A stretch of 47,574 nt of DNA from a virus: positions 1-47,574 of IMG/VR virus record IMGVR_UViG_3300049002_000009. One strand, given 5' to 3'. Positions 16,442 to 31,757 of this stretch are shown piece after piece; the stretch's first letter is position 1, and each line of letters starts with the position of its first letter. A program made the position numbers and the translations under genes. The notes beneath the pieces were generated by a model. That model saw only the letters and a program-made list of their open reading frames with translations. It did not search any database and was not told the DNA's origin.

Positions 16442-16474
16442 GGACGTGCAACGTGGGGGTTGCGCGTGATTCGC

Positions 16475-16528
16475 GCGCCATACATGCAGCTTTTGCGGCG
16501 CAGGCTTGCTCGGCTGCATGTATGGCGC
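16475..16528. repeat. Perfect 16-bp inverted repeat with 22-base loop
   Basis: GCGCCATACATGCAGC at 16475-16490 is the exact reverse complement of 16513-16528. The 22-base loop is GC-rich. No T-run follows on either strand, so it is not a standard intrinsic terminator. It could be a protein-binding site, a structured RNA or a recombination site. Confidence 0.8.
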
Positions 16529-16984: not shown

Positions 16985-17034
16985 CTTCCGCAGTAGCCGC
17001 TAACGCTTTGGTTTGGCGGCTGGTCTTGCGGAGG
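16985..17034. repeat. Nested double stem
   Basis: An outer stem CTTCCGCA/TGCGGAGG (16985-16992 with 17027-17034, one G-T wobble) encloses an inner stem AGCCGC/GCGGCT (16995-17000 with 17016-17021) with a 15-base loop. Two-base and five-base joints separate the stems. This is more elaborate than a terminator and suggests a folded RNA. Confidence 0.55.
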
Positions 17035-17086
17035 AGGCTACGGGTTCGCTAGGCTACCCGGAGCGTCCTCAACAAGCGCCAGCATA

Positions 17087-17126
17087 CATGAAGCCCCGTC
17101 GTGAGGTCAACCGGCGGGGCTTCATG
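17087..17126. terminator. Bidirectional terminator-like hairpin between convergent transcripts
   Basis: CATGAAGCCCCG (17087-17098) is exactly complementary to 17115-17126, giving a 12-base-pair GC-rich stem with a 16-base loop. It lies just beyond the stop of the leftward operon (17130) and downstream of the rightward unit at 15328-16441. There is no T-tract, as is common for terminators in high-GC Gram-positive bacteria. Confidence 0.7.
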
Positions 17127-18337: not shown

Positions 18338-18538
18338 TCAGCACGACTCTCCGTTGGCGATTGTGTGCATGGCCGCGTTGTCAAGTTCGCGTTGCTCCGA
18401 GTCTGTGAGGCGACCGTGGAGTCCGAAGTCCCGGGCGAACCAATGGGAGTTGCCGTCTGTGATGTACGCCTCGCGTCCGGTGGACGTTGTTCCCGTCCAT
18501 CCGCGCTGTGTCCGTTGCACTGTCGTCTCGCTGTTCAT
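18338..18538 (-). CDS. Small hypothetical protein with a leaderless start (66 aa)
   Basis: ATG at 18538 (MNSETTVQRTQRGWTGTTST) begins seven bases after the -10 box GACAAT, which predicts a leaderless message; the ATG at 18547 lies inside the -10 box and is rejected. The sequence includes TDGNSHWFARDFGLHGRLTD and a C-terminal helix. It is the first gene behind the 18546-18574 promoter and leads a run of leftward genes to 17130. Confidence 0.68.
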   Translation of the reverse strand: MNSETTVQRTQRGWTGTTSTGREAYITDGNSHWFARDFGLHGRLTDSEQRELDNAAMHTIANGESC

Positions 18539-18545
18539 GGTTCCC

Positions 18546-18586
18546 ATTGTCTTACAACAGGAGGCTCGCGTCAAGCGCGCTTGCAC
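18546..18586 (-). promoter_or_regulatory. Leftward promoter with palindromic operator (site C)
   Basis: On the minus strand the -35 box TTGACG (18574-18569) and -10 box GACAAT (18551-18546) are 17 bases apart. The palindrome GTCAAGC-GC-GCTTGCA (plus-strand positions 18570-18584) overlaps the -35. The same palindrome occurs at 21268 and 30673, so a common phage regulator is likely. Confidence 0.75.
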
Positions 18587-18619
18587 AAGTGTGCGAGAAC
18601 CTGCAATACGGGGGTGACC

Positions 18620-19132
18620 CTAAGGGATGCGGCCTGCCCACCCAGCCGGGTCATGCCACGCCCGTGTCTTGCCGGGTGCCGTGATCTTGCCGAACGTGCG
18701 GTCCGCCCAGCCGTCAGCGGGTGCGGGTTCCAACCGGTAGTGGCTGAGGATGCGGCCGTTGCCTAGGGCGATGTCGAAGTCGAGCCCGTGCGTGTGGTGG
18801 AGGCCGGGGTGCGCGTAGTTGGCGTGTTTGCCGAGCGCGACGTAGATGCAGGGCCGGTCGTCTATGAGTCGCATGGTGTGGATGCCAATGGTGCGCGCAC
18901 GCCCGTGCTGGGAGAGGGCGCAGGTGTCGTGCGTGAACTGGACGAGTTCCCAGTCGTAGCGGTGGCCGCGGCGCCACGGCAGCGGGGACAGGTCGCGTGC
19001 GTAGAAGCAGTAGAACTGGAGCCAGCCGTCATGCTCACGCCAGTAGATGCAGTTCGGTTCGCCCGCGATGGATTGCGGTAGCCAGCGTTCCCCGTACGTG
19101 AAGTACCAGATGGGTCCGTTGGGACCGCTCAC
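18620..19132 (-). CDS. Vps62-like protein of unknown function (170 aa)
   Basis: The GTG at 19132 is coupled to the upstream stop (GTGA). Several phrases recall the Vps62-related family: IWYFTYGERWLPQ, WLQFYCFYARDL, DWELVQFTHD, LSQHGRA, and most strikingly IYVALGKHANYAHPG. In that family the D-W-E and G-(S/K)-H-A motifs form a conserved core of unknown chemistry. No signal peptide or membrane segment is present. The similarity is by eye only. Confidence 0.5.
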   Translation of the reverse strand: MSGPNGPIWYFTYGERWLPQSIAGEPNCIYWREHDGWLQFYCFYARDLSPLPWRRGHRYDWELVQFTHDTCALSQHGRARTIGIHTMRLIDDRPCIYVALGKHANYAHPGLHHTHGLDFDIALGNGRILSHYRLEPAPADGWADRTFGKITAPGKTRAWHDPAGWAGRIP

Positions 19133-19221
19133 ATCTTGAGAACTTGTACTAGGCCACGCACGAGGTCTATATGCACGGTGTACGCGTTTCCGCGGGCACT
19201 TGATAGGCGAACGATGCTCAT
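19129..19221 (-). CDS. Very small protein (30 aa)
   Basis: ATG at 19221 overlaps the upstream stop (ATGA), and its TGA overlaps the GTG of the next gene. The peptide MSIVRLSSARGNAYTVHIDL has an amphipathic C terminus (VRGLVQVLKM). Support comes from coupling on both sides. Confidence 0.5.
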   Translation of the reverse strand: MSIVRLSSARGNAYTVHIDLVRGLVQVLKM

Positions 19222-19301
19222 CGGTGGAACAGCTCCATAACGGCGTAGAGGACGGGGATGCACCACAAGGCGCCTATGGCAATCCATTGTCCCGTGCTCA
19301 T
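19218..19301 (-). CDS. Miniature membrane protein (27 aa)
   Basis: ATG at 19301 and the TGA are both in ATGA overlaps. The peptide (MSTGQWIAIGALWCIPVLYA) is one hydrophobic helix with Trp near both ends and a short polar tail (MELFHR). It is one of several mini membrane proteins in this genome. Confidence 0.5.
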   Translation of the reverse strand: MSTGQWIAIGALWCIPVLYAVMELFHR

Positions 19302-19570
19302 CGTTTGGCCTCCAGTTTTAGCCGGCGTGCGAGTTCGTCGTATGCGTTGGCGTACGTGAGGCGCATGAGCAGCGGGTCCATGACAGGCCCTAGGGACTCT
19401 GTGACGCGCATGGCGTGCTCCACGGCGGTTTCCCGGTCGAGGTCGAGGGAGCCCATGCTGTTGAGGACCGCGGGGAGGTCTACGGTGTGGGTTCGTGGCG
19501 TGAGCCAGCCCATGTCGAGCGCGATGCCGATGAGCGCGGTCCCAACGAGCGTTTCGTGCGTGGGCGTCAC
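19298..19570 (-). CDS. Hypothetical helical protein (90 aa)
   Basis: I start it at GTG 19570, which overlaps the upstream TGA. It begins VTPTHETLVGTALIGIALDM and has helical LDLDRETAVEHAMRVTESLG and NAYDELARRLKLEAKR segments. No zinc or membrane motif is present. Function is unknown. Confidence 0.68.
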   Translation of the reverse strand: MTPTHETLVGTALIGIALDMGWLTPRTHTVDLPAVLNSMGSLDLDRETAVEHAMRVTESLGPVMDPLLMRLTYANAYDELARRLKLEAKR

Positions 19571-19758
19571 GACGCTGGTTGCTGTCCAGTACCAGCGCAG
19601 TCGGAGCAGGATTGTTTGGCTGGCCCTGCGAAGTACCCGATGCCAGCGCACCGCGGACAGGTCTGATCCGCCTCCTGCGTTACGCTCTGTTTGCCGGGGT
19701 CTCGGCTGGTTGCGTTGTGGCACCGCGCGTTGCTTCCCTCGCGCCGGGGTACGGTCAT
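19567..19758 (-). CDS. DnaJ-type zinc-finger small protein (63 aa)
   Basis: It has paired CxxCxGxG repeats, CPRCAGIG and CSDCAGTG (about residues 34-41 and 52-59), the zinc-binding pattern of DnaJ cysteine-rich domains. The N terminus is basic. The start overlaps the upstream stop by ATGA. Similar short proteins are frequent in actinophages; none has a known role here. Confidence 0.7.
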   Translation of the reverse strand: MTVPRREGSNARCHNATSRDPGKQSVTQEADQTCPRCAGIGYFAGPAKQSCSDCAGTGQQPAS

Positions 19759-19955
19759 CCCGCATCACCCTCACCGGGCGCCGAGACCCCGGCAGCCCGC
19801 ATGCGGTCCATCGGGCGGACGGTTTCGCAGCGTCCGCACTCGCGAGCCCACCCAACGTTGTTCTGTCCACAGCGACAGAACCATGAGGGCAGGAACGACA
19901 GGTCGGTTCCGGGCGTAACCCACTCGGGCGGTTCCCAGGGCTGGGGATTGCTCAT
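19755..19955 (-). CDS. RanBP2-type zinc-finger small protein (66 aa)
   Basis: Residues about 25-45 (WFCRCGQNNVGWARECGRCE) match the RanBP2-type finger: W-x-C-x2-C-G-x-N-x7-C-x2-C. The N terminus is Pro- and acidic-rich (MSNPQPWEPPEWVTPGTDLS). In cells these fingers bind single-stranded RNA or ubiquitin; in this phage the target is unknown. ATGA overlaps on both sides. Confidence 0.72.
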   Translation of the reverse strand: MSNPQPWEPPEWVTPGTDLSFLPSWFCRCGQNNVGWARECGRCETVRPMDRMRAAGVSAPGEGDAG

Positions 19956-20275
19956 CGGCGTCCTTTCACGATTTGGTCTACGCGCTGACGACTAAGCCCA
20001 CGATCCTGGGGGGACGCGTCCGTGACGAGCTGCGCGATGGTGGAAGCGCGCGGCGGCTTGCCCGTACCAGCGCAGTCCGCGCAAGGCCAGTCGTGGTCGG
20101 TGTCGATGGACGCGAAGCTGCGTCCATCGCCACCGCATTGCGGGCACACCTCTGCTTCGAGTAGCGTTCGGATTGCCGCGTCCCGCTGCTGTTGCGCGAG
20201 CGTCGAGTCGTCTTGGCCGGCGAGCGCGCGTAGGTGATGCGCGATGATCGTTTGAACGGACGGAGGGGTGGTCAT
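19952..20275 (-). CDS. Zinc-finger protein with helix-turn-helix-like C terminus (107 aa)
   Basis: It starts MTTPPSVQTIIAHHLRALAG. Two DnaJ-type knuckles, CPQCGGDG and CADCAGTG, occupy residues 44-72. The C-terminal LSRQRVDQIVKGRR resembles the recognition helix of a sigma-70-like or Rep-type HTH. It may be a DNA-binding regulator. Coupled to its neighbours by ATGA. Confidence 0.7.
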   Translation of the reverse strand: MTTPPSVQTIIAHHLRALAGQDDSTLAQQQRDAAIRTLLEAEVCPQCGGDGRSFASIDTDHDWPCADCAGTGKPPRASTIAQLVTDASPQDRGLSRQRVDQIVKGRR

Positions 20276-20601
20276 GCGCTGGCCTTGAGCTGAATGGCGC
20301 GCCGTTCGCCCGAGTCCGTCAGGGCATACGCGGTTCCGGAGAGACCATCCGGTCGTCCGCGATTCGCGATTAGCTCACGTCCACGCAGCCCCGTGAGTGA
20401 TCCGATAACACGCTGTGCGGGACCCATCGAACCAGACCATGTGGTGCTTGCGCGTCGAGCGCGATTGGCGTTGAGACCGATAGCGCAGGCTATGTCGTTC
20501 GGTGGCATGGGGTAGTGGTAGTGCGCGGTGGGACCGTGCTTGGCGTCGAGTAGGGCCATAAGCACTTGCTCTTGGCGTTCTGTGAGGGGCCGCGTGTTCA
20601 T
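20272..20601 (-). CDS. Winged helix-turn-helix DNA-binding protein (109 aa)
   Basis: The N terminus (LTERQEQVLMALLDAKHGPT) and PPNDIACAIGLNANRARRAS form a winged-helix recognition pattern. They are followed by a wing-like RGRELIANRGRPDGLSGTAYALTDSGERR segment read across two blocks. This is the layout of MarR/IclR-like wHTH regulators in phages. It is a candidate early transcription regulator. Which operator it binds cannot be told from sequence. Confidence 0.7.
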   Translation of the reverse strand: MNTRPLTERQEQVLMALLDAKHGPTAHYHYPMPPNDIACAIGLNANRARRASTTWSGSMGPAQRVIGSLTGLRGRELIANRGRPDGLSGTAYALTDSGERRAIQLKASA

Positions 20602-21023
20602 CGTCCTGCCTCCAGTTCCCGCATGTCCTCTTGCACGGTTTCCAGCGCGATATCCATTCGGGTCGCCCGGTTGGTGCCCGCGAGCGTGCTGTGCCGTACG
20701 CGCTCCAGTGCGTCGCGGACCTCGTTGAGGACGGCGCGTGCCTCATCGTGCCTTGTGATGACGGGGTGCACGCCTCCGCAGAGGTCGGCGCGCAGTGCGG
20801 GGTGCATGTGCAAGGCGGCGAGGGCTTCCGCGCGGGACAGGGCGGCGCTGCGTTCGTCTCCGACGCAGCTGGCATGGAATGCGTTGCGGTAGTGCGTCGC
20901 GGCATCGTGCAGGGCGTCCGCACGTTTGGCCGCTTTGAGTGCGAGCGTGATGTCTGCGTGTTGCGCATCCGTCCACCGGGGCGTCTCGAACGGCTCCGTG
21001 CGGCCAAAGTCACGATTGAGCAT
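20598..21023 (-). CDS. Helical hypothetical protein (141 aa)
   Basis: It starts MLNRDFGRTEPFETPRWTDA. The body is alanine-rich and helical (LALKAAKRADALHDAATHYR, AVLNEVRDALERVRHSTLAG), with one Cys-Gly-Gly-Val-His turn. It resembles coiled-coil accessory proteins; no family was recognised. ATGA overlap with the next gene. Confidence 0.68.
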   Translation of the reverse strand: MLNRDFGRTEPFETPRWTDAQHADITLALKAAKRADALHDAATHYRNAFHASCVGDERSAALSRAEALAALHMHPALRADLCGGVHPVITRHDEARAVLNEVRDALERVRHSTLAGTNRATRMDIALETVQEDMRELEAGR

Positions 21024-21205
21024 CAGGACGCCAGTCGTGTGCGTCGGGTCTCGTAGGCTGTGATGTAGACGGTGTACGCCGCCTCAACGAGCCCCCGTAG
21101 TTCGGAGGTAGTCATGTCGTCAACGATCGCGCGAAGGCGCTCAGCGTCGTTATTCATGGCGGCTAGCAGCGCCTCGGTCTCGGTGTAGGGCGTCTCGGTG
21201 GTCAT
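21023..21205 (-). CDS. Small acidic protein opening the leftward early operon (60 aa)
   Basis: ATG at 21205 follows GAGGGGGAG. The protein (MTTETPYTETEALLAAMNND) is acidic and helical with DDMTTSELRGLVEAAYTVYI. It is the first leftward gene behind the bidirectional promoter at 21244-21307, about 39 bases downstream of the minus-strand -10 box. Function unknown. Confidence 0.72.
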   Translation of the reverse strand: MTTETPYTETEALLAAMNNDAERLRAIVDDMTTSELRGLVEAAYTVYITAYETRRTRLAS

Positions 21206-21243
21206 TTACTCTGTGCTCCCCCTCGGGTTGCTTTCCGCCTCCC

Positions 21244-21307
21244 ATTCTCCCGCCCCACACCTTGTTTGTCAAGCGGGCTTGCATTCCGTGGGGGGACCTG
21301 CGACAAT
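21244..21307. promoter_or_regulatory. Bidirectional early promoter with shared palindromic operator (site A)
   Basis: On the minus strand TTGACA (21272-21267) and GAGAAT (21249-21244) are spaced by 17 bases. On the plus strand TTGCAT (21279-21284) and GACAAT (21302-21307) are also spaced by 17. The two -35 boxes meet in one palindrome, GTCAAGC-GG-GCTTGCA (21268-21282). A single bound regulator would therefore block both promoters. The rightward transcript continues into GTACCCCA (21314-21321). Confidence 0.85.
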
Positions 21308-21348
21308 GACCCGGTACCCCAGAACCACGAAGCAGGGAGAAGACAGAA

Positions 21349-21543
21349 ATGGCAGCGATGGAAAGGGCTGAGACTGGTCGCGATGGCTTCGTGATCCGCT
21401 CACACGAAGACGGCAGCGAGATCGATTTCATCGCCTGCACAAAGGATGGGCGCATGCGCGACAAGGTTGAGATGGGCCTGTTGATGCGCGTCGATCCGGA
21501 GTGCTTCTATTTCGAAGACACCCGGTGGGCTCCTGGTGCTTGA
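21349..21543 (+). CDS. First gene of the rightward early operon (64 aa, unknown)
   Basis: ATG at 21349 has AGGGAGAA upstream. The acidic protein (MAAMERAETGRDGFVIRSHE) has beta-hairpin-like GSEIDFIACTKDGRM and a C-terminal CFYFEDTRW. No domain was recognised. It lies 42 bases after the rightward promoter. Confidence 0.72.
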   Translation: MAAMERAETGRDGFVIRSHEDGSEIDFIACTKDGRMRDKVEMGLLMRVDPECFYFEDTRWAPGA

Positions 21544-21763
21544 TTACGTGTTGTTGGCGCGGGCTCGGAAGATGCTCGCGGACGAAGCAACAGAACTACA
21601 CGCTCAGGCGCGCACGAGGCTGTGCATGAGTGCAATCAGCACACGCATCGTGACCGCTGAGGCGTGCGAGTACGCCGCGCAGAGTTTGCATAACGTGTTG
21701 TCGAAGGCGGACGCGTTCCTTGACGACGAACAGGCACGGGAGGCACTACGCGATGGCGCGTGA
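21536..21763 (+). CDS. Helical hypothetical protein (75 aa)
   Basis: GTG at 21536 overlaps the upstream gene by eight bases. Sequence: MLDYVLLARARKMLADEATE, then a helix with ACEYAAQSLHNVLSKADAFL. It is acidic to neutral and probably all-alpha. No family was recognised. Confidence 0.68.
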   Translation: MLDYVLLARARKMLADEATELHAQARTRLCMSAISTRIVTAEACEYAAQSLHNVLSKADAFLDDEQAREALRDGA

Positions 21764-22439
21764 AGTCACAGAGCCGACGCAGGACCAATACGGCGCTGAG
21801 GTTCACCCGTCGTGGGCGATGATCGGTGCTAGTCGAGTGTCGCACGGAGGATGTGGGGCGTCGCTGTTCGACAGCGACATCCTGCATCAGCACACCGTGA
21901 CCGTGCGCATCAGCACTGCATCACGCAGGCGCGACCTCAACCACGATTGGCTGCACCCGGAACAGGAGTTCATGGAGGTTGAGCTGAGCGAAGCTCAGTG
22001 GGCATCGTTCGTGTCCTCAATGAACGTCGGGTCGGGCGTGCCCTGCACACTCCGTAGTCGTGAGGGCGACTATCTTGTGCCCGAAGCGCCGCATGAGCCA
22101 CGGTTGCAGGAGTCGATGAACGAAGTCCGTGACGCTGCTGAGCGTGCGGCGGAGCAGGTCAGCGAGGCGTTCGCGGTCTACAAGGCACACAAGACTGTGG
22201 GGAATCTACGCTCGCTGGAATACGCCATCGCGAACATGCCGTCCAATATCACGTTCGCTGCTAGCTCGCTGTCCGAGCACGCCGAGAACGTCGTGCAGCG
22301 TGCACGCGCGGACATCGAAGCGATGGTTGTTACGAAGGCGCATCAGCTTGGCTTGGAGCCCGCGGACCTCGGCGTTACGGCGCCGCAGCTGTCGGCTGGA
22401 TCGTCTACGGAAATCTTGGAGGCACTACGCCATGAGTGA
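21753..22439 (+). CDS. Hypothetical protein with C-terminal coiled coil (228 aa)
   Basis: ATG at 21753 with GGGAGG upstream (MAREVTEPTQDQYGAEVHPS). The N-terminal 110 residues are beta-rich with a Trp-rich SEAQWASFVSSMNVGSGVP segment. From residue 120 onward the protein is a long charged helix (EVRDAAERAAEQVSEAFAVY, VVQRARADIEAMVVTKAHQL). Similar proteins with this beta head and helical tail occur in early regions of other phages. Function unknown. Confidence 0.7.
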   Translation: MAREVTEPTQDQYGAEVHPSWAMIGASRVSHGGCGASLFDSDILHQHTVTVRISTASRRRDLNHDWLHPEQEFMEVELSEAQWASFVSSMNVGSGVPCTLRSREGDYLVPEAPHEPRLQESMNEVRDAAERAAEQVSEAFAVYKAHKTVGNLRSLEYAIANMPSNITFAASSLSEHAENVVQRARADIEAMVVTKAHQLGLEPADLGVTAPQLSAGSSTEILEALRHE

Positions 22440-22737
22440 TGTTGCTGCTGTGCTCCGGAAGGCCCGCGACCTGTACGCCGCAAACCCATCACACGTCGCA
22501 GCGGAGATCCCAGTTGCTCACGGCGAGCACTGTCCCTACACCGCCATCATGGAATCAGGCGTGGTGGACCGGGATACGCGCCTGAGTGCTCTGGATGTGC
22601 TTCAGGCAGCGGTGGAGATCCCGCCCAACCGTAGAAGTGGTTTGTGGGGACCGACAGCAAAGTGGAACGCGGAGAACTCTACGGAGACGGTGTTGGCCGC
22701 GTTCGACAAGGCAATCACGGAGGCCGACAATGCCTAG
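22432..22737 (+). CDS. DUF6197-like small protein (101 aa)
   Basis: ATG at 22432 overlaps the upstream stop region. The opening VLRKARDLYAANPSHVAAEI and the closing WNAENSTETVLAAFDKAITE fit DUF6197, an actinobacterial and phage family with an N-terminal helix and a terminal NxxxxTxxxVLAxFDxAI motif. The central HCPYTAIM region has a single Cys. The family function is unknown. Confidence 0.6.
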   Translation: MSDVAAVLRKARDLYAANPSHVAAEIPVAHGEHCPYTAIMESGVVDRDTRLSALDVLQAAVEIPPNRRSGLWGPTAKWNAENSTETVLAAFDKAITEADNA

Positions 22738-22960
22738 ATCCTTTGGTGTGGACCTGTTCACGCACCGCACCCAACCCACGGACACCCCCAGGCGCCCGGG
22801 CTGGGCCACAGTGGAGATCGCGCGGCTCCGGGCGCACATGGAGGACGCGTACACCCTGATCGGTGCCGGCAGGTACCACGACGCCAGGTTGGCGTTGCAG
22901 GCCGGACGGTGGGGCACCCCGCACAACGATGTGGACGACACGGGGAGGGAAGCAGCGTAA
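22730..22960 (+). CDS. Hypothetical protein (76 aa)
   Basis: ATG at 22730 overlaps the upstream gene by eight bases. It begins MPRSFGVDLFTHRTQPTDTP and includes a helical VEIARLRAHMEDAYTLIGAG and YHDARLALQAGRWG, a TPR-like helix pair. No specific family was recognised. Confidence 0.65.
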   Translation: MPRSFGVDLFTHRTQPTDTPRRPGWATVEIARLRAHMEDAYTLIGAGRYHDARLALQAGRWGTPHNDVDDTGREAA

Positions 22961-23205
22961 TGGCTGAGAAGCTGGAGGCGTTTCCAGTTCGTCACAATGG
23001 ATCTAGGCGCCCCGGAAAGTACCCGTGGGATGAGTGGCTTGACGGGTCCGTGTGGCAACTCAAGCGTGGCGAGGACTTTGACATTCTTCCGAAGTCAATG
23101 TTGCAAATGGCGCGCACAAACGCTAGTCATCGGCGCTTGAGCGTTCGTACGCATCACAACGGCGACATAGTTGTCATCCAAGCAAGCCGTAGGACTGACG
23201 CATGA
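22960..23205 (+). CDS. Hypothetical protein, WDEW motif (81 aa)
   Basis: ATG at 22960 overlaps the stop by one base. It contains a KYPWDEWLDGSVWQLKRGED stretch typical of small phage proteins with aromatic-rich cores, followed by a basic helix (MLQMARTNASHRRLSVRTHH). Many actinophages carry short WDEW-type proteins of unknown role; I cannot assign a function. Confidence 0.68.
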   Translation: MAEKLEAFPVRHNGSRRPGKYPWDEWLDGSVWQLKRGEDFDILPKSMLQMARTNASHRRLSVRTHHNGDIVVIQASRRTDA

Positions 23206-23321
23206 CTCGTCTGATCCTTCGCAGCTACTTCACTCGTCAACGCGTCGGCACGCTGTACCTCGTGCGTGTCCTGGGTCGCGAGTACGCGCACATCCGGTTG
23301 AACAGGAAGGCAAAACGATGA
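23202..23321 (+). CDS. Small basic protein (39 aa)
   Basis: ATG at 23202 and TGA overlap both neighbours (ATGA). The sequence MTRLILRSYFTRQRVGTLYL is beta-rich and strongly basic (RKAKR at the end). Likely a compact nucleic-acid-binding peptide. Confidence 0.58.
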   Translation: MTRLILRSYFTRQRVGTLYLVRVLGREYAHIRLNRKAKR

Positions 23322-23632
23322 GCGATGACAACTGGGCGATCTGTCCGAAGTGTCTCGACATTGCGCAGCACGAGGCCGCGAAGGAGCACCGACGCATCAT
23401 GGACCTTTATGGTTCCGTGCCCGTCGAGGAATTCGACAAGCTCCGCGACGCACTCAAGCCTATTGAACCGGAGACATATCGCACGTTCCGCGAGGACTAC
23501 GAATTCTACGGCGCTGTAAGCGGTGAGATAACGGCGTCCTACTCAGGGCACTGCACCGTCTGTGACCTCGGTTTGGACTTCGAGGACAAGCGACCGTTCT
23601 ACCCTGGACTTGAGCGCGAGGTGGAGGCATGA
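23318..23632 (+). CDS. Zinc-ribbon protein (104 aa)
   Basis: ATG at 23318 follows AGGAAGG. Cysteine pairs CPKC (residues 9-12) and CTVC (about residues 79-82) form a split zinc ribbon; the intervening part is acidic and helical (AAKEHRRIMDLYGSVPVEEF). It lies immediately before the RecT-like gene with an ATGA overlap and may assist recombination. Confidence 0.7.
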   Translation: MSDDNWAICPKCLDIAQHEAAKEHRRIMDLYGSVPVEEFDKLRDALKPIEPETYRTFREDYEFYGAVSGEITASYSGHCTVCDLGLDFEDKRPFYPGLEREVEA

Positions 23633-24459
23633 CCGACAGCACGTCTCTCGCTGCCCCCGCCTATGACAGCATCGATAAGCGGCGTCTTGACCTGATCCGC
23701 AAGACGGTCGCGAAGGGCGCCACGGACGCGGAACTAGCATCGTTTCTGGAACTGGCGAAGAAGTACGATCTTGATCCGTTCGCGCATGAGGTGTGGTGCG
23801 CGATCTCGCAGCGGGATGGCGGGAACCGCAACGTCCTGATCATGGTCGGGCGTGCCGGCTTGCGGAAGATCGCGCAGCGCCAGGGCCTACGGATCGACGG
23901 GGATGTGGTGCGCACCAATGACCAGTTCACAGTCACGCGCAAGGCAGACCGAACCCGTGCCATTGAGCATGCGTACAGCGAAGGAACTATCGATGGAAAG
24001 AAGGTTGACCGCGGGCCTATCGTCGGGGCGTGGGCGGAAGTTCGTGAGGCTGCCTACGGCCAGCAGCGCGGCTACTTCTACGCGCCCTTGAGCGAGTACA
24101 AACCCACGAACCCAAAGAAGCTCCAGTACTCGCCGTGGGGGTCGCAGGAATCCACGATGATCCTCGCGGCAGCCGAACGGCAGGCTATCGCGATGGCAAC
24201 CCCGCTGGGTGGGCTGCACGCGGAAGGCGAGACGCCCGCGCTCACGGGCAGCGTTGTGCCCGAGCTGGACGCTGCGCCCGAGCCTGAGCTTCCCGACGCT
24301 GCCCTGCTCGTTGTGCAGCACGCGGTTGAGAACGGGCACGCCCAACTCAGCGATCCCGCGACCGTCGCGATGATGGTCAGCGGCATGACCGACGAGACGC
24401 TGAAGACGTGGGCTGAGGAAACACACGCCGAACTCGACAGGACAAGGGAGCAAGCATGA
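23629..24459 (+). CDS. RecT/Bet-family single-strand annealing protein
   Basis: 276 residues. The family signature is clear: LASFLELAKKYDLDPFAHEV, then WCAISQRDGGNRNVLIMVGR, AGLRKIAQRQGL, and the AWAEVREAAYGQQRGYFYAP block. The C terminus is acidic and variable. RecT-like proteins anneal complementary single strands and load on resected ends; with the nuclease at 26070 it would form a phage recombination pair. ATGA overlaps at both ends. Confidence 0.9.
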   Translation: MTDSTSLAAPAYDSIDKRRLDLIRKTVAKGATDAELASFLELAKKYDLDPFAHEVWCAISQRDGGNRNVLIMVGRAGLRKIAQRQGLRIDGDVVRTNDQFTVTRKADRTRAIEHAYSEGTIDGKKVDRGPIVGAWAEVREAAYGQQRGYFYAPLSEYKPTNPKKLQYSPWGSQESTMILAAAERQAIAMATPLGGLHAEGETPALTGSVVPELDAAPEPELPDAALLVVQHAVENGHAQLSDPATVAMMVSGMTDETLKTWAEETHAELDRTREQA

Positions 24460-24617
24460 GCCTCTACGCACATCGCACATGCCCCGTTTGCGAACGCTCA
24501 TTCACGACGGACTGCGATGAGTACACCTGCTCGTCGGAGTGCGAGGACGCTGCTTACGACGAGCACATGGAACGCCAAGTCGAAGATGCCCAGATCAGTC
24601 GCCAGACCGAAGAGTAA
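24456..24617 (+). CDS. Zinc-knuckle mini-protein (53 aa)
   Basis: ATG overlaps the RecT stop (ATGA). The peptide (MSLYAHRTCPVCERSFTTDC, then YTCSSECED) has cysteines CPVC, C and CSSEC, a compact zinc knuckle. The C terminus is a charged helix (MERQVEDAQISRQTEE). Many phages carry such a protein beside recombination genes. Confidence 0.68.
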   Translation: MSLYAHRTCPVCERSFTTDCDEYTCSSECEDAAYDEHMERQVEDAQISRQTEE

Positions 24618-24625
24618 AAACCTTT

Positions 24626-24683
24626 CATGCTTGTCGCCGCTCATACGAGAAAGGAACTCGATTCCCCTTCTCCCGGCGACATG
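24626..24683 (+). other. Long interrupted stem-loop in a gene-free gap, structured RNA candidate
   Basis: CATG (24626-24629), GTCGCCG (24633-24639), GAGAA (24647-24651) and GGAA (24653-24656) pair with TTCC (24662-24665), TTCTC (24668-24672), CGGCGAC (24674-24680) and CATG (24680-24683). The terminal loop is CTCGA. Bulges interrupt a stem of about 20 pairs. There is no trailing T-run, so an RNA structure or weak terminator is more likely than a strong intrinsic terminator. Confidence 0.6.
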
Positions 24684-24721
24684 AACCGTGCGCTAGCTGG
24701 CTGCCACCACAGCGCACGACC

Positions 24722-24758
24722 GCGAGGGGTGGTTTGCCCTCCCTGCGCCACCCCTCGC
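24722..24758 (+). terminator. GC-rich hairpin before the 24779 gene
   Basis: GCGAGGGGTGG (24722-24732) pairs exactly with CCACCCCTCGC (24748-24758), an 11-base-pair stem with a 15-base loop. It lies 20 bases before the ATG of the next gene and two bases from the start of an A-rich stretch. It may attenuate transcription between the RecT block and the next block. Confidence 0.55.
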
Positions 24759-24778
24759 ACAAACTTCAAGGAGCAACC

Positions 24779-25138
24779 ATGAGGGTCATTGAACCCGGAC
24801 ACATCTACGCGCTACACAGCGTAGATGGCGCGGACGAGCAGACGGTTAGGTTCGTGAAGCGTCGCGACGAACTAGGCGAACTACTCGACGGAACGCGACG
24901 CACTCCGGGCATCCTCACGCAAGAACTACTGCGCGTCGCTATTGACCGCACGCTGTATCTCTACGCGGAAGCACCGTGCGATGAGGACACGGCCATTCTG
25001 GAGCACTTACGGGCCGCGCTAACGCTCTACGAAAGCAGAGCTGCACGACGCACTATCGAGAAGCTCGCGAAGCCTGAGAGCGCAGATACGTGTGGCATCT
25101 GTGGACATATAATTTGCGGACACGGGACACGACCATGA
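24779..25138 (+). CDS. Conserved phage protein with C-terminal zinc knuckle (119 aa)
   Basis: ATG at 24779 follows AAGGAG. Its opening (MRVIEPGHIYALHSVDGADE followed by VRFVKRRDELG) matches a widespread family found in many phages that begins MRVIEPGHxYxLxxxDG and reads (V/L)xFVKR, of unknown function. The C terminus CGICGHIICGHG is a compact zinc knuckle. The protein also has an RVAIDRTLYLYAEAPCDED core like other members. Recognised from memory only. Confidence 0.75.
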   Translation: MRVIEPGHIYALHSVDGADEQTVRFVKRRDELGELLDGTRRTPGILTQELLRVAIDRTLYLYAEAPCDEDTAILEHLRAALTLYESRAARRTIEKLAKPESADTCGICGHIICGHGTRP

Positions 25139-25302
25139 ACGAACTCGACAGGGCGCATGAACTCCTCACCGACGCAGGCATCCCACGCGCAGACGACTAC
25201 GGGCAGCCCATCAGTCTCGCGGCCCGCGTTGGGCTGCTCATTGATGAGAGCAACAGCGTGCACGCAGAACTCGACGGGCTGCTAAAGAGCCTCGCGCCAT
25301 GA
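25135..25302 (+). CDS. Small acidic helical protein (55 aa)
   Basis: ATGA overlaps on both sides. Sequence MNELDRAHELLTDAGIPRAD, then LAARVGLLIDESNSVHAELD. Probably two helices; no known family. Confidence 0.62.
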   Translation: MNELDRAHELLTDAGIPRADDYGQPISLAARVGLLIDESNSVHAELDGLLKSLAP

Positions 25303-25541
25303 GCACCGCCGACGAACGACGGGCTGCCCTGCTGGAGTGGATCTCCAGTTTGCCTGACCATGAAGGCATGACCGCCCCGGAGATCGCGCGACGCGCGGTT
25401 GCGTGGACACCCCCCAACCCACAAGTCATCTACAGTGGCGAGGGGTTCGCCAATCGCTGCTATGACGACCTCTGCGCGCTTGCCCGCGATGGGAAGCTGA
25501 GGCGTGGCGCAGGGCGTCCCGTTACGTGGTGGACCCAATGA
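25299..25541 (+). CDS. Winged-helix-like DNA-binding protein (80 aa)
   Basis: ATG at 25299. The segment MTAPEIARRAVAWTPPNPQV is followed by GFANRCYDDLCALARDGKLR, an HTH and wing arrangement ending in a GRPVTWW wing. Candidate small transcription factor. ATGA coupling. Confidence 0.6.
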   Translation: MSTADERRAALLEWISSLPDHEGMTAPEIARRAVAWTPPNPQVIYSGEGFANRCYDDLCALARDGKLRRGAGRPVTWWTQ

Positions 25542-25633
25542 CGCCGCTTGTGCGTTGGTACTACCTGTACGTGTGGGCGTTCATCCTAGGGCTCCCGCTC
25601 TTTGGACTGCTACACGGACTCGGCATAGCATGA
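25538..25633 (+). CDS. Miniature membrane protein (31 aa)
   Basis: ATGA overlaps at both ends. Peptide MTPLVRWYYLYVWAFILGLP plus LFGLLHGLGIA is one hydrophobic helix with aromatic residues at the membrane edge. Coupling supports translation. Confidence 0.55.
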   Translation: MTPLVRWYYLYVWAFILGLPLFGLLHGLGIA

Positions 25634-26070
25634 TGACCCGCTTTTACCAATGGCTCAGCGAGCCAGAGATTATCGGGCATCCAGATTGCCCGCTGATAAA
25701 GCGCTGGACACTCATCGGAGATCGCAAGCAGGGCATCTACCGCTGGCCGCTCAAGCTCATGGTGCATTATTTCGTGCCAGGTACCGATGATCCGGACCCA
25801 CACGACCACCCACGCTCATTCGTGACGCTTGTCTTGCGTGGCTACTACATCGACCATTCGCGTACCGGCTCCGAGGGCATGCGCCGCGGGATGATTCGTT
25901 ATCGGCACGCTGAACACGCTCATACGACAACCGCAGGTCCCGATGGGTGCTGGACTATCGTGGTGATGGGACCTCAGCGTCGCGAGTGGGGGTTTTGGCG
26001 CGGTGAAACTTGGATGCCTTTTCGTGAGTATGCTGAGCGCTTTGGGCGCGGATCTCAGAGGTGTGGCTAG
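25630..26070 (+). CDS. Cupin-like protein with HDHP motif (146 aa)
   Basis: ATG at 25630. A conserved core DPDPHDHPRSFVTLVLRGYY (about residues 54-73) and HAEHAHTTT supply metal-binding histidines of a cupin beta barrel. Small phage and bacterial cupins share the pattern HDHPWxFxSxVLxGgY. Substrate and role are unknown. The N terminus GHPDCPLIKRWTLIGDRKQG and a C-terminal amphipathic helix are family-like. Confidence 0.68.
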   Translation: MMTRFYQWLSEPEIIGHPDCPLIKRWTLIGDRKQGIYRWPLKLMVHYFVPGTDDPDPHDHPRSFVTLVLRGYYIDHSRTGSEGMRRGMIRYRHAEHAHTTTAGPDGCWTIVVMGPQRREWGFWRGETWMPFREYAERFGRGSQRCG

Positions 26071-27128
26071 TGCCTAAGCCTGAACACGGTGCCCTCATCG
26101 ACGGGGTTGTGCGCGTCAGCACGCTACGTAGCTACTCCCAATGCCCACAGGCCACCGCCTGGATGCTAGAAGACGACGGCGACTGGAGTAGCGAGGAAGC
26201 AGCCCTAGGGACCGTGAGCCACGGTGTTCTGGAAGCCATCCTCAACAAGCTGCGGGTCAGTGGTGACGAGTCTGTGGACTTCGATGATGCGTTGGAGATC
26301 ATGGCGCGCGTCGCAGCAAACCCGCAGATGCCGCACCTGTCCGCTAAGAGCCTGGAGACGTTGCGGATCATCACGTTGCAGATCGCGAAGATGCAATGGA
26401 CCGCGAGCAGGATTGTGCACGTCGAGAAGCGACTGTGGTGTGATGTAGTCTGTCCGGACGGGGAAACGCGCCGGCTCACCGGGCAGCCTGACGTTGTGCA
26501 AGCTCAGGCGCCCGGTGTGGCGGCCATCACGGACCTCAAGACGGCTTGGAACACGCCACCGTCCCCGCGTGATGGGAACTGGGAGCGCGATCAGGGCAAG
26601 CCGTTCATTAGCGACGCGGGCTGGTTCCAGCTCAACAGCTTGAGTCTGCTCGTTCAGCGCACGTTCCCGTCGATCCACACGACGCAGCTCCATGAGTGGT
26701 ACCCGCGTGCTGGGGAGACGCGTGTTGCGTGGATTACGAGGGAGGAACTGCCTGCTGTCGAGTGGCGTATCGGCTTGCTGCTGCAACGACTTGACGCGAT
26801 GCGTGCTGGGAAACTTGCGCCTGAGGCTCGCTCTGGTACGCATTGTGCGCGGATCTGTCCGAATCCTGTCGCTTGTCCGATACCTGCTGCTGAGCGCCGG
26901 AGCATCATCACGGGCAACGGAGCACTCACGGAACCTGAGCGCGCCGTAGAGATGGCCGAGGTCTACGCTGCTGTGTGCGCGCAAAAGGATCGCCTCACGG
27001 ATGAACTCAAGCCGTGGTGTGAGGACCACGCTGTCCCGTTCTCTGACGGGTACGTCGGCTGGCGACTGAACGGCAAGACGCGTAGCTTCGGAGTCCATTC
27101 GATGCCGAGCAAGGAGGAAGACGCATGA
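26070..27128 (+). CDS. RecB/Cas4/AddB-type Fe-S PD-(D/E)XK nuclease (352 aa)
   Basis: I use the GTG at 26070, which overlaps the upstream TAG by one base; GTG 26061 is also in frame. Motifs of the RecB nuclease family: GTVSHGVLEAIL (H51), GQPDVVQ (D141), ITDLKTAWN (D155, K157) and QLNSLSLL (Q187). Cysteines at 25, 259, 263 and 269 form an iron-sulfur staple as in Cas4 and AddB. The enzyme would resect double-strand ends for the RecT-like protein at 23629. Confidence 0.82.
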   Translation: MPKPEHGALIDGVVRVSTLRSYSQCPQATAWMLEDDGDWSSEEAALGTVSHGVLEAILNKLRVSGDESVDFDDALEIMARVAANPQMPHLSAKSLETLRIITLQIAKMQWTASRIVHVEKRLWCDVVCPDGETRRLTGQPDVVQAQAPGVAAITDLKTAWNTPPSPRDGNWERDQGKPFISDAGWFQLNSLSLLVQRTFPSIHTTQLHEWYPRAGETRVAWITREELPAVEWRIGLLLQRLDAMRAGKLAPEARSGTHCARICPNPVACPIPAAERRSIITGNGALTEPERAVEMAEVYAAVCAQKDRLTDELKPWCEDHAVPFSDGYVGWRLNGKTRSFGVHSMPSKEEDA

Positions 27129-27397
27129 ACACGTCTACTATCAATTATGCGGCGCTGGCTGAGAAATGCTTGGCTGACATCGGGCGATATCAGCTCGCTC
27201 TACAGGTTGTTTATGAGCTAGCTGTCTATGGTCCCGGGAATGCGGCGCAGATCGCGGAGCGCATGACCGACCGCGATGAGGAACGAGGACCCATTCTGGA
27301 ACAGTGGGTAGACGATGCTTTGGCCGAGCTAGACCTGTGGTCATTGTTGGACTACTCAGGCTTGGAGAACAAAGACCCTGTATCTCTAGTGTCATGA
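27125..27397 (+). CDS. Helical hypothetical protein (90 aa)
   Basis: ATG at 27125, ATGA overlap. The sequence MNTSTINYAALAEKCLADIG, with ELAVYGPGNAAQIAERMTDR and ALAELDLWSLLDYSGLE, suggests an HTH-like or helical bundle. No family was recognised. Upstream is the RecB-like nuclease. Confidence 0.65.
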   Translation: MNTSTINYAALAEKCLADIGRYQLALQVVYELAVYGPGNAAQIAERMTDRDEERGPILEQWVDDALAELDLWSLLDYSGLENKDPVSLVS

Positions 27398-27762
27398 GTG
27401 TTCTCGCGGTTGCGTTCTCGCTGGCTGTCGGGCATCCGCCCGTGCACGCGCCACGCCCCGCGTGCTGGCGCCGTTCCTGCCGTGAGCGCGTGGAGATGCG
27501 CTCCTACCGGCGCCGTCCGATGCCGTGGTGTACGTGGGGCCCGGAGTCCGGTGCGTGGCGTCCTGAGTGGTCTCTGGCGCGCTACAGGCAGCCGAACGTG
27601 TCCGGTGGCACCGGGGGCGGCAAGTTTCAGATGCTCGTCTCGACGTTCTGGGCGCACGGCGGTTGGGGGTTGCCGCAGTTCGCGCGCCCCGTTGTGCAGG
27701 AACGCATAGCGCGCAGGGTCAAGCGAAACGAGGGATTGGGCGCATGGGTCAACTGCCCGTGA
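27394..27762 (+). CDS. Rpf/lysozyme-like muralytic protein (122 aa)
   Basis: ATG at 27394 (ATGA overlap). A short hydrophobic N terminus (MSVLAVAFSLAVGHPPVHA) could be a signal peptide. After a Cys/Arg-rich linker comes the transglycosylase-type core: WGPESGAWRPEWSLARYRQ (Glu51 as candidate catalytic acid), then SGGTGGGKFQMLVSTFWAHG. This matches the ESGG...G-GKYQ...S-TW...GG pattern of Rpf and soluble lytic enzymes. It lies in the early region, away from the lysis genes, which is odd. Confidence 0.7.
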   Translation: MSVLAVAFSLAVGHPPVHAPRPACWRRSCRERVEMRSYRRRPMPWCTWGPESGAWRPEWSLARYRQPNVSGGTGGGKFQMLVSTFWAHGGWGLPQFARPVVQERIARRVKRNEGLGAWVNCP

Positions 27763-27941
27763 TCACGACACGAGAGATCACGCTAACGCTGCCGCACCAC
27801 GAGATGTGCCAGATTCTAGGCGCCGTCAACTGGTGCAGGCGCGCGCTGGCCGGGATGCCCGCTGGACTGCATCCGCCGCTTAAGACGCTGGACTCGCTGG
27901 AGCAGCGCGCGGACGACATTCGCAAGGCGCTGGACGCATGA
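27744..27941 (+). CDS. Small helical protein (65 aa)
   Basis: ATG at 27744, inside the end of the upstream gene. It begins MGQLPVITTREITLTLPHHE and has an amphipathic helix (LDSLEQRADDIRKALDA). Small proteins of this layout, an N-terminal strand and C-terminal helix, are frequent in actinophage early regions. Function unknown. Confidence 0.65.
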   Translation: MGQLPVITTREITLTLPHHEMCQILGAVNWCRRALAGMPAGLHPPLKTLDSLEQRADDIRKALDA

Positions 27942-28078
27942 TCGTCGTCGCGAGCTACCGTCGCTGGGCGCGTGCCGCCAAGGTCGCGTCGGATCTGAAC
28001 GGGATTGTTGAGTGCGCGTACAGCCTGCGCCGTCGTAACCGCCGCTGGGAAGTCGTGAGGCTGCGCAAAGCAGCGTAG
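27938..28078 (+). CDS. Basic mini-protein (46 aa)
   Basis: ATGA overlap at 27938. The peptide (MIVVASYRRWARAAKVASDL) ends RRRNRRWEVVRLRKAA and is strongly basic, predicted to bind nucleic acid. It closes the block before a GC-rich hairpin and a 150-base gap. Confidence 0.6.
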   Translation: MIVVASYRRWARAAKVASDLNGIVECAYSLRRRNRRWEVVRLRKAA

Positions 28079-28234
28079 AAGCGCCCTGCGCCCGACGCAG
28101 GGGGACAGGAAGGGGTCGGGCACAGGGACTTGGGCAACGGCGCCTGGACATGAGGAGGCGCAGAGAGGAGACTATCGCAGTGCTGAGGCGACGCATACCG
28201 GAAGCAGGGGCAATGGACAGCAGGGCCAGCACGG
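28079..28234 (+). other. Gene-free gap with hairpin
   Basis: This 156-base gap between two translationally coupled blocks includes the stem CCCTGCG/CGCAGGG at 28084-28102 (loop CCCGA). A 30-codon reading frame (28151-28243) lacks a ribosome binding site. The gap may hold a terminator-like or attenuator element. No promoter with good -35 and -10 boxes was seen. Confidence 0.45.
28084..28102 (+). terminator. GC-rich hairpin
   Basis: CCCTGCG (28084-28090) and CGCAGGG (28096-28102) form a seven-base-pair stem with a five-base loop, starting six bases after the stop at 28078. No T-run follows, so partial termination or RNA stabilisation is plausible. Confidence 0.45.
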
Positions 28235-28612
28235 ATGGCTGACACGGCGCAGGAACGAGTAGTCGCGCTATTCACGGGCTCCCGCGGCTGGAAGGACTGG
28301 GAAGCCATCAAGCACGACGTGTACGCGCTTCCGATGCACGCCCTCGTGGTGCACGGCGCGTGTCCCAGTGGAGCCGACAGGATGGTTCAGAGAGCCGCAG
28401 AGGGCCGCGGCCTTCATGTCGCCGCCATCGGAGCAAGATGGGATTGCTACGGCAAAGCCGCGGGCTACAAGCGCAACGCCGTGATGCTGCTCACGCAGCC
28501 CACGATCGTGTACGCCTACCCGTTGGGTGCATCCCCAGGGACCCGCATGATGATACGACTCGCGCAGGACGCCGGGATTCCCGTGCTGGACCGCTCGCCC
28601 GTTATCGCATGA
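28235..28612 (+). CDS. SLOG-family protein (DUF2493-like, 125 aa)
   Basis: The N terminus (MADTAQERVVALFTGSRGWK) carries the FTGSRxW nucleotide-binding turn, followed by ALVVHGACPSGADRMVQRAA, the HGxCxxGAD signature of the DUF2493/YspA SLOG family. The C terminus is alpha/beta (VMLLTQPTIVYAYPLGASPG). SLOG proteins bind small nucleotide-derived ligands. It overlaps the MT-A70 gene by ATGA. Confidence 0.82.
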   Translation: MADTAQERVVALFTGSRGWKDWEAIKHDVYALPMHALVVHGACPSGADRMVQRAAEGRGLHVAAIGARWDCYGKAAGYKRNAVMLLTQPTIVYAYPLGASPGTRMMIRLAQDAGIPVLDRSPVIA

Positions 28613-29175
28613 GCGAGCGCTACAAAACGATCGTGGCGGACCCGCCGTGGAGCGTCAAGGCAGGACCACGCAGCTTGCATGCCGCAGACGACGGCTATCG
28701 CAGACAGGCTGCGAGCGGGCTTTCAACGCGCGTGTTGAAATACGACGTTCTGAGCGTCTCTCAGTTGATGACGCTCCCCGTTTCGGAACTCGCGGAGCCT
28801 TCCGCGCACCTCTACATCTGGACGATCAACGCCTACGTCGAGCAAACATACGCCATCGCTCGCGCATGGGGCTTCAAACCATCCACACTGCTCGTATGGT
28901 GCAAGAAGCCAAAAGGACGCGGACTAGGAGGACGCTACTCAACGGCGACCGAGTACGTGCTGTTCTGCCAGCGCGGCAACCATCCAAGCGATGCGCGTTG
29001 CGAACGCAACTGGTGGGAATGGCCGAGGTCCGCACACAGCGCAAAGCCCGACGCGTTCCTAGACATCGTTGAGCAAGTCAGCCCCGGCCCGTACGTCGAG
29101 TTGTTCTCTCGTCGCTGCCGTTTCGGCTGGGACTACCGCTGGCATGACGGTGACCCCGCACCCGTGGCTGCATGA
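28609..29175 (+). CDS. MT-A70-family adenine-N6 DNA methyltransferase (188 aa)
   Basis: The DPPW catalytic motif sits at residues 11-14 (IVADPPWSVK). The rest of the Rossmann-like methyltransferase follows: LYIWTINAYVEQTYAIARAW, WCKKPKGRGLGGRYSTATEY and VLFCQRGNH, with the C-terminal PYVELFSRRCRFGWDYRWHD block. Phage members methylate adenine in DNA, often to resist restriction. It is coupled by ATGA to its upstream and downstream neighbours. Confidence 0.85.
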   Translation: MSERYKTIVADPPWSVKAGPRSLHAADDGYRRQAASGLSTRVLKYDVLSVSQLMTLPVSELAEPSAHLYIWTINAYVEQTYAIARAWGFKPSTLLVWCKKPKGRGLGGRYSTATEYVLFCQRGNHPSDARCERNWWEWPRSAHSAKPDAFLDIVEQVSPGPYVELFSRRCRFGWDYRWHDGDPAPVAA

Positions 29176-29807
29176 GCGACGGTCCGCAACGCAATCTGCG
29201 TGTCGTCCAGTTCGTCAACCCAGGCACAGGCGAAGTCGTCGGGCAACACGCCGAAGATCCCCTAGCCGCAGAGCTTGAAGCATGCAAAGCGCAGTTGACG
29301 GACGCGAACCGCACCATCGTAGGGCTCGAAACGGACCTCAACGCGTGGCGCATCCGGTATCGCAAGCTCGCGGAAGACAAGGCAGCGGAGGCACGTGAGC
29401 ACTACTTGTTTCCGATCGTGGTCTTGTTGTTCAAGGGCTGGCAGGCGCACTGTAACCATCCGCGCGCACGGTTCTCAGCGGACCGCTTCTGGGCGATCGA
29501 GCCGTTCCTGACGACGAAACGGTACGGCGACACCCTGGAGGCCCGTGTAGCGCTCTGCTGCCGTGCCATAGCGGGCGCTGGCTACAACCCCGGGCGCCGG
29601 CAACGCAAGAACGGGACGTGGCAACGCTTCGATGACTGGGGCGATTCGATCTTCTACGGCGCGGGACGGTTCGAGGAGTACTGCAACAAGGCTCCGCGTG
29701 GTTGGCAGCCCGCCATGTCGCCCAAGCTACTGGACGCGATCCGGGTTGCTGAGGGCAGGGCGCGGCAGCAGACGCAACGCAAAGCAAGCGAGAGGGCAAC
29801 AGGGTGA
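29172..29807 (+). CDS. Conserved-type actinophage protein with coiled coil (211 aa)
   Basis: N-terminal SDGPQRNLRVVQFVNPGTGE leads into a coiled coil (LEACKAQLTDANRTIVGLET, about residues 37-72), then a compact C-terminal domain with RFWAIEPFLTTKRYGDTLEA and DDWGDSIFYGAGRFEEYCNK. Proteins with this tripartite layout are frequent beside replication or methyltransferase genes of actinophages. The C-terminal part has a DNA-binding-like basic tail. No function is known to me. Confidence 0.7.
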   Translation: MSDGPQRNLRVVQFVNPGTGEVVGQHAEDPLAAELEACKAQLTDANRTIVGLETDLNAWRIRYRKLAEDKAAEAREHYLFPIVVLLFKGWQAHCNHPRARFSADRFWAIEPFLTTKRYGDTLEARVALCCRAIAGAGYNPGRRQRKNGTWQRFDDWGDSIFYGAGRFEEYCNKAPRGWQPAMSPKLLDAIRVAEGRARQQTQRKASERATG

Positions 29808-30109
29808 GCGATCCAGCATGGATGCCGCCGGGGGGATGCGTTGAGGTTGAGTCTGGGGTGTTCGAGGACCCGTCCGGCAGGGTGTTTGTGGCTCCGGGGA
29901 CGTGGGCTGAGTGGTCGTTCAGGTGCCCCGTGGAGGCGAAGCGGGAGCGGGAGCTTCATAAGCGCTGGTTGCAGCACAACGGGTGGTATCAGCCAACGCT
30001 GGAGGAGTGGCGCATGTACTGCCACCGGCAGCGCGAAGTGATTGCTGAGCTGGAGGCCGCGTTGTCCTACCAGCGGTTGGAGACGATCCGGGCACGAGCA
30101 GGACTATGA
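29804..30109 (+). CDS. Hypothetical protein (101 aa)
   Basis: GTG at 29804, overlapping the upstream TGA. N-terminal beta-rich segment (VEVESGVFEDPSGRVFVAPG) and C-terminal helix (WRMYCHRQREVIAELEAALS). No transmembrane segment or catalytic motif. Function unknown. Confidence 0.68.
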   Translation: MSDPAWMPPGGCVEVESGVFEDPSGRVFVAPGTWAEWSFRCPVEAKRERELHKRWLQHNGWYQPTLEEWRMYCHRQREVIAELEAALSYQRLETIRARAGL

Positions 30110-30273
30110 ACGAGGGAGTTGAGCGCATGACGATCGGGCTTGGACAGCAGGCAACAGACGGGTTGTGGTATCGCGGTGCTCGTGTGTATGGCGGTCGTGG
30201 ATCACCGATCTTGGTACATCTGTACTGGCCTATGAACGATCCAAGGCCAGCGGTTGGTTGGTGGTTCCTATGA
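30106..30273 (+). CDS. Aromatic-rich small protein (55 aa)
   Basis: ATGA overlaps on both sides. The peptide (MNEGVERMTIGLGQQATDGL) is beta-rich with several Trp and Tyr (GLWYRGARVYGGRGSPILVH). A compact beta fold is likely. No family was recognised. Confidence 0.6.
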   Translation: MNEGVERMTIGLGQQATDGLWYRGARVYGGRGSPILVHLYWPMNDPRPAVGWWFL

Positions 30274-30482
30274 CTGCTCAGGTGATATGCCGCGAGCTTG
30301 CACGATGCAACGGTGGACCGGGGCTCACAGCTGATGAGCTAGCGGACCGCCTAGGGCATCCGCGCGCGGTGATCCGGCAGGAGATGGCGGGCCTCGTGCT
30401 CCGCAAGAAGGTATGCACGATCGACAGGGCAGGCAGGTACAAGATGGGGCCGCCACCTAGGTCGCTGTTTGAGGTGTCGTGA
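30270..30482 (+). CDS. Winged-helix DNA-binding protein (70 aa)
   Basis: Residues 18-44 (LTADELADRLGHPRAVIRQE and following) form an HTH, and VLRKKVCTIDRAGRYKM is a wing. This is the layout of small MarR- or LexA-like winged-helix proteins. It lies just upstream of the operator-containing promoter at 30673, so autoregulation is possible. Confidence 0.65.
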   Translation: MTAQVICRELARCNGGPGLTADELADRLGHPRAVIRQEMAGLVLRKKVCTIDRAGRYKMGPPPRSLFEVS

Positions 30483-30673
30483 TGGTCTGCGACCGGTGCG
30501 ACGGGGAGGGCAGCTACATGCGTCTCGCGGACTGCACGACGACGGGCCCGGACTGTGCTTGCAACGGGCCTCGCGTGGACGTGGATCCGTGCGAGGTGTG
30601 CGGTGGGTCGGGGGAGTTGACGCCCGAGCGTGCTGTGTCGCGTGAGGCGTTGCCGTGGTACGAACGCAGCTAG
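30479..30673 (+). CDS. DnaJ-type zinc-ribbon protein (64 aa)
   Basis: GTG at 30479 or ATG at 30482. Cysteine motifs CDRCDGEGSYM and CEVCGGSGEL (near residues 4-10 and 39-44), with an additional CACNGP, make a DnaJ-like zinc ribbon. It is the last gene before the site B promoter. Confidence 0.7.
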   Translation: MMVCDRCDGEGSYMRLADCTTTGPDCACNGPRVDVDPCEVCGGSGELTPERAVSREALPWYERS

Positions 30674-30712
30674 TCAAGCCTGCTTGCATTCTGGGTTGAG
30701 GGAGCGTAGGCT
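30673..30712 (+). promoter_or_regulatory. Rightward promoter with palindromic operator (site B)
   Basis: TTGCAT (30684-30689) and TAGGCT (30707-30712) are 17 bases apart. The palindrome GTCAAGC-CT-GCTTGCA (30673-30687) overlaps the -35, matching sites A and C. GTACCCCA follows at 30722-30729, and then a GAAGGGAG binding site precedes the ATG at 30748. The upstream operon appears to read through into this point. Confidence 0.72.
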
Positions 30713-30747
30713 GTAAGACACGTACCCCAGTTGAAGGGAGCAACACA

Positions 30748-31348: not shown

Positions 31349-31757
31349 GCGTATGTGGACATGCAAGCGTGTCCAGTCAGGCGTGCAGTGCGCTGCGAGC
31401 AACCCCGCACGCAAACGCAACTGCACACGCTGCGGGAAACCCAGGCAGCGGCGGGAAACCAGCAAAACCCGGCACATGCAGGTCTTACGCGACCTTAGCT
31501 ATGAGGAGTGCGTGCGGATCAACGGGGGGGAGCACTGCGGCATCTGCGGCGCTGGCCCGGTGAGCAAGCGGCTGCAACGCGACCACGAACACAAGGGCAA
31601 GGGGGCGCTGCGTGGACTGCTCTGCTACCGCTGCAACATCGCCCTGCCGGACTACGTGACGCTGGAATGGATGTACACCGCTGTCAAGTACCTAGAACGT
31701 TTTGAGCAACGAAGGGAAGCGGATGCAAACGGTGGAGATCATGGTCGCGGGACGTAA
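31341..31757 (+). CDS. Endonuclease VII-type HNH nuclease with N-terminal zinc knuckle (138 aa)
   Basis: ATG at 31341. The recombination endonuclease VII core is clear: CGIC (residues 66-69), LQRDHEHKGKGALRGLLCYR (DH at 81-82) and CYRCN (95-99). An extra N-terminal finger WTCKRVQSGVQC...CTRCGKPR (C8, C17, C28, C31) is RanBP2-like. Such nucleases resolve branched DNA before packaging or act as homing nucleases. Confidence 0.85.
   Translation: MPERMWTCKRVQSGVQCAASNPARKRNCTRCGKPRQRRETSKTRHMQVLRDLSYEECVRINGGEHCGICGAGPVSKRLQRDHEHKGKGALRGLLCYRCNIALPDYVTLEWMYTAVKYLERFEQRREADANGGDHGRGT

Follow-up and report, generated by a model that had tools for sequence, protein, structure and literature searches.

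Three phage operator systems stand closest to the arrangement considered here. In the mycobacteriophage BPs the repressor is known, gp33, and its 12-bp palindrome, CGACATATGTCG, is present at a handful of phage loci, such that several promoters are controlled; the OR operator lies between the -10 and -35 boxes and the full sites are made up of two half-sites (PMC4557955). The CI-MOR switch of TP901-1 and phi13 has three operators, OR, OL and OD, which in phi13 are palindromic (PMC4892519, PMC8516035). The L5-type (Cluster A) operators and stoperators are 13-bp, asymmetric sequences, of which there are more than twenty per genome (PMC9283540).

The DNA analysed here is a viral sequence of 47,574 bases, and this whole stretch is referred to as the window. 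Within it a 16-base near-palindrome recurs at three sites, which appear to work like the operators of BPs and of the three-operator switches, yet miss the defining features tested of each as well as those of the L5 stoperators. The likeness to BPs is that of a short palindrome recurring at phage promoters, a divergent early pair included, but the word here is built around CAAGCNNGCTTG and lies on the -35 box, a different sequence in a different position from that of BPs at each of the three sites, and with candidate regulators only. With TP901-1 and phi13 the locus shares three operator sites and divergent promoters; their switch, however, is compact and organised around adjacent cI and mor genes, whereas the sites described here are spread over 12 kb. 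In a CI-type switch, such as that of lambda or TP901-1, a recognisable CI-like gene adjoins the divergent promoters, but none is recognised beside the middle site (site 2) here. In the case of L5, the likeness is that of repressor sites at early promoters. The L5 stoperator consensus is GGTGGMTGTCAAG, with which site 2 presumably has the letters TGTCAAG in common. An L5-type stoperator was nevertheless rejected as an identity for the sites, which are near-palindromic and only three in number, and GGTGGMTGTCAAG has no copy in the window, either exact or with one mismatch.

The same dyad at several promoters, and its absence elsewhere, is the pattern that marks a set of operators, and it is the pattern found here. 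The site looks like a previously undescribed operator in a kind of arrangement that is already known and ordinary. A literature search with the half-site letters returned unrelated papers only.

The repeated word and its copies

A search of the whole window finds GTCAAGCNNGCTTGCA, the 16-base near-palindrome, as an exact match at three places:

Site 1, 18570-18585: GTCAAGC-GC-GCTTGCA, inside the intergenic gap 18539-18619.
Site 2, 21268-21283: GTCAAGC-GG-GCTTGCA, between back-to-back divergent promoters.
Site 3, 30673-30688: GTCAAGC-CT-GCTTGCA, which starts on the final base of the preceding stop codon, TAG.

The original prediction had described these three exact copies correctly, save that its end coordinates fell one base short, and its claim of an invariant CAAGC-NN-GCTTG core around variable central bases also holds, the latter being GC, GG and CT. 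The core itself, CAAGCNNGCTTG, is matched exactly in the 47,574 bases at 18572, 21270 and 30675, a count of three against 0.05 in dinucleotide shuffles. All three copies (3/3) lie in gaps between genes, which make up approximately 6.2% of the window according to a gene list drawn up by eye from scored ORFs, the ORF list and homology. Gaps other than those of sites 1-3 score 12/14 or less, and the next best site, at 16580, has two mismatches (12/14) and falls within an 824-bp noncoding stretch.

The two ends of the window, 1-127 and 47448-47574, are identical and form a 127-bp terminal repeat. This makes it probable that the record is a whole genome, some 47.4 kb long and either terminally redundant or circularly closed, and that three is the full number of sites. 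Random copies of the motif elsewhere, which would speak against a regulon, were searched for in this probably complete genome and none is present, such that the regulon idea is not refuted on this count.

The 824-bp stretch, 16298-17121, is without a confident gene. It contains a perfect 16-bp inverted repeat (16475-16490 / 16513-16528) and, at 17087-17126, a second inverted repeat that is terminator-like, and the stretch is possibly an origin or a noncoding RNA. Rfam gives no match on it, and the tRNA and Rfam scans are empty.

Predicted promoters and genes at the sites

All three sites overlap a -35 box that is followed by a 17-base spacer, as had been foreseen in the original prediction, and a start codon lies downstream of each; at site 2 the overlap takes in a pair of divergent -35 boxes. 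The predicted promoters, and the elements that follow them, are these:

Leftward promoter at site 1, 18546-18574, minus strand: TTGACG-17-GACAAT, with its predicted start at the ATG at 18538.
66-aa ORF, 18338-18538, minus strand: downstream of site 1, with no family match.
Leftward promoter at site 2, 21244-21272, minus strand: TTGACA-17-GAGAAT, start codon at 21205.
Rightward promoter at site 2, 21279-21307, plus strand: TTGCAT-17-GACAAT, start codon at 21349.
GTACCCCAG, 21314-21322, plus strand: within the leader predicted after site 2; its sole other copy in the window, 30722-30730, follows site 3.
Rightward promoter at site 3, 30684-30712, plus strand: TTGCAT-17-TAGGCT, start codon at 30748.

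To judge from its spacing, the leftward transcript at site 1 would be leaderless. A general scan of the region with a promoter consensus gives four promoter-like sites against 3.3 in shuffles, which is no excess, and the promoter calls consequently rest on their placement upstream of genes. A promoter-like site at 33912 carries no dyad. A role for the dyad as an RNA hairpin or terminator was considered and rejected, since the promoters that it overlaps have their predicted starts downstream of it, and its loop would be of 2 bases.

Downstream of the leftward promoter at site 2 lie the ORFs between 21205 and about 18620, and downstream of the rightward one those between 21349 and 30673, which include a RecT-like gene, an exonuclease and a methyltransferase. 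The rightward promoter at site 3 leads to ORFs from 30748 to about 34690, among which are HTH proteins, endonuclease VII and a YdjM-like protein, the last two being assigned to their ORFs from the sequence. The three sites look as if they sit on the start signals of the non-structural genes of the phage.

Two genes elsewhere in the window may be mentioned. An FtsK/SpoIIIE-like protein is encoded at 36728-38164, where similarity to TraB (plasmid transfer) is well below the curated cut-off, and a LAGLIDADG endonuclease-like ORF, placed at 10564-11094 by a similar assignment, adjoins the terminase gene.

Candidate regulators and relatives

What protein might recognise such a dyad? The phage encodes four proteins that may be considered as candidates:

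20272-20601, minus strand: 109-aa ORF in the leftward operon of site 2, winged-helix-like by eye only, a weak candidate regulator.
30165-30482: candidate ORF that lies shortly before site 3 and matches HTH_20 weakly.
31723-32391, plus strand: 222-aa HTH protein encoded within the site 3 operon, a candidate regulator with an HTH_31 match (E=2e-4) below the curated cut-off.
32563-33027, plus strand: 154-aa protein of the site 3 operon that carries three HTH_23-like repeats, a candidate regulator (PF13384, E=8e-23; phrog_3855).

The 109-aa ORF is without a match in Pfam, PHROGs and NCBIfam, and its single-sequence fold is not confident (pLDDT 40). The N-terminal HTH region of the 222-aa protein folds with a pLDDT of about 70-90, and the single-sequence folds of two of the candidate regulators are too poor for a fold search. 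Among the tested ORFs flanking site 2 there is no CI-type or CI/XRE repressor match in Pfam, PHROGs or NCBIfam, and neither an integrase nor a recognised repressor is evident among the best 25 families listed for the pooled ORFs.

The relatives that can be compared include a 7.9-kb contig (L155) with a portal that is 71% identical, which holds structural genes only and is without the site region, and further relatives from an alignment search, whose portals are 48-60% identical. Exact CAAGCNNGCTTG is absent from the records of relatives with about 50-60% portal identity, most of which are partial contigs, and likewise from 1.24 Mb of loci retrieved with head protein, portal and terminase as queries, a figure in which overlaps are counted repeatedly. 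The ten ORFs tested around the sites have no relative within these fetched loci. Scans of viral contigs by RecT, exonuclease and terminase gave no close relatives, although such scans depend on exact short peptides, and a relative with as much as 70% identity can escape them, as happened with the major head protein; terminase and portal scans of genome contigs also gave none, and a blastn search of the site 2 region against phages returned chance-level hits only. The 16-base word does occur in other viruses, where, among the matches listed (at least 119 copies), a -10 box stands at the right distance in 7.6% as opposed to 7.7% at control offsets, and these copies are probably mostly chance. 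As far as the relatives compared reach, the motif looks private to this lineage.

Some of the relatives have features of their own. In G016 (L175) two XRE-like genes, recognised by eye, lie divergently at 44-794 with overlapping promoters, whose -35 boxes fall within an inverted repeat, CTTGACTAG/CTAGTCAAG, and the arrangement looks like a lysogeny switch. An inverted repeat on divergent -35 boxes in this relative makes such an operator, with another sequence, plausible in this group. In G019 (L172/L173) the portal match is broken by about 950 bp at 20907-21862, which suggests an intron, an intein or some other insertion. A further relative, G018 (L179), has a major head protein that is 53% identical and a GC content of 48%, compared with 63% here.

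Proposed operator function and its alternatives

It is reasonably probable that the 16-bp near-palindrome is a transcription operator for a dimeric, most likely phage-encoded, regulator through which the non-structural operons would be controlled jointly. In a putative dimer each subunit would contact one CAAGC/GCTTG half-site, and the bound protein would cover the -35 hexamer, such that the housekeeping RNA polymerase is kept off; repression rather than activation is suggested because the site overlaps the -35 box. Occupancy of site 2 would silence the leftward and rightward non-structural operons together, and sites 3 and 1 would bring in one further operon each, rightward and leftward respectively. 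The regulator could be a repressor either for immunity or for early shut-off. The original prediction had spoken of a phage regulon with an uncharacterised DNA-binding protein. A common operator on the -35 boxes is indeed the best reading of the sites, while the protein is a part of the scheme that we infer.

Could the word have recurred simply by chance? Three matches so placed had been held very unlikely on this basis, a claim that fails for the bare palindrome and survives for the longer word. When arms of 5 bases are searched exhaustively with gaps from 0 to 8, six 5-N(0-8)-5 palindromes have at least three copies in the real window, and the mean in 150 simulated third-order Markov windows is 5.66, so the recurrence of a bare 5-N-5 palindrome is at chance level and not remarkable. 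Another 7-NN-7 word, CTCAGGGNNCTGCACC, likewise occurs three times (at 6202, 23542 and 33602), inside genes and without being a dyad, perhaps by chance. Three copies that agree also at two flanking bases on each side are found once in the real window, however, and in just 1 of the 150 simulated windows, and all three are intergenic, in some 6% of the sequence, and at -35 positions. Chance recurrence of the word at the three sites is on these grounds highly improbable.

A different explanation, and an unlikely one, is that the sites are copies of one divergent promoter (TTGAC / TTGCA) spread by duplication, in which the dyad is just two back-to-back -35 hexamers and there is no dedicated regulator. 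Three related sites may be compatible with copies of one such promoter cassette: the left arm always reads CTTGAC leftward and the right arm CTTGCA rightward, at site 2 both arms have a -10 box at 17 bases, and sites 2 and 3 have in common CTTGCATTC as well as GTACCCCAG, with two copies of each in the window. Given the shared leader sequence, part of the similarity between these two sites may indeed reflect cassette duplication. The flanks beyond the 16 bp are otherwise largely diverged among the sites, however, and the 16 bp therefore look selectively retained. Furthermore, the 7-base arm that a useful promoter does not need is kept identical at both sites that have one, namely the right arm of site 1, which has no rightward gene ahead, and the left arm of site 3, which is directed at the gene upstream, its -10 being poor (GGCAAC). 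Since these non-promoter arms are intact, shared -35 boxes alone do not explain the dyad, and the intact distal arms, together with the dyad-free promoter-like site at 33912, favour an operator over mere promoters. It might also be that a host regulator binds the site and is exploited by the phage to sense the state of its host. The promoters resemble those of the housekeeping sigma factor, and no repressor of a recognised family is seen adjoining the sites, but neither is a widespread operator seen, the word standing without -10 association at 119 or more sites in other viruses, and a host regulator appears distinctly improbable.

The operator reading can also be put in a more elaborate form, which as a whole is rather unlikely. 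Here two back-to-back -35 boxes would have merged into a single dyad, on which one dimer from outside the recognised repressor families would shut both divergent non-structural operons, with the two further copies coordinating the remaining operons, all in a lineage without an evident integrase.

If the operator reading is true, it would reveal how the non-structural half of this phage is controlled; the phage belongs to a group for which the phage collection searched contains no close relative. Outside the lineage the arrangement is an ordinary one; within it, the site would provide a defined probe for fishing out its regulator.
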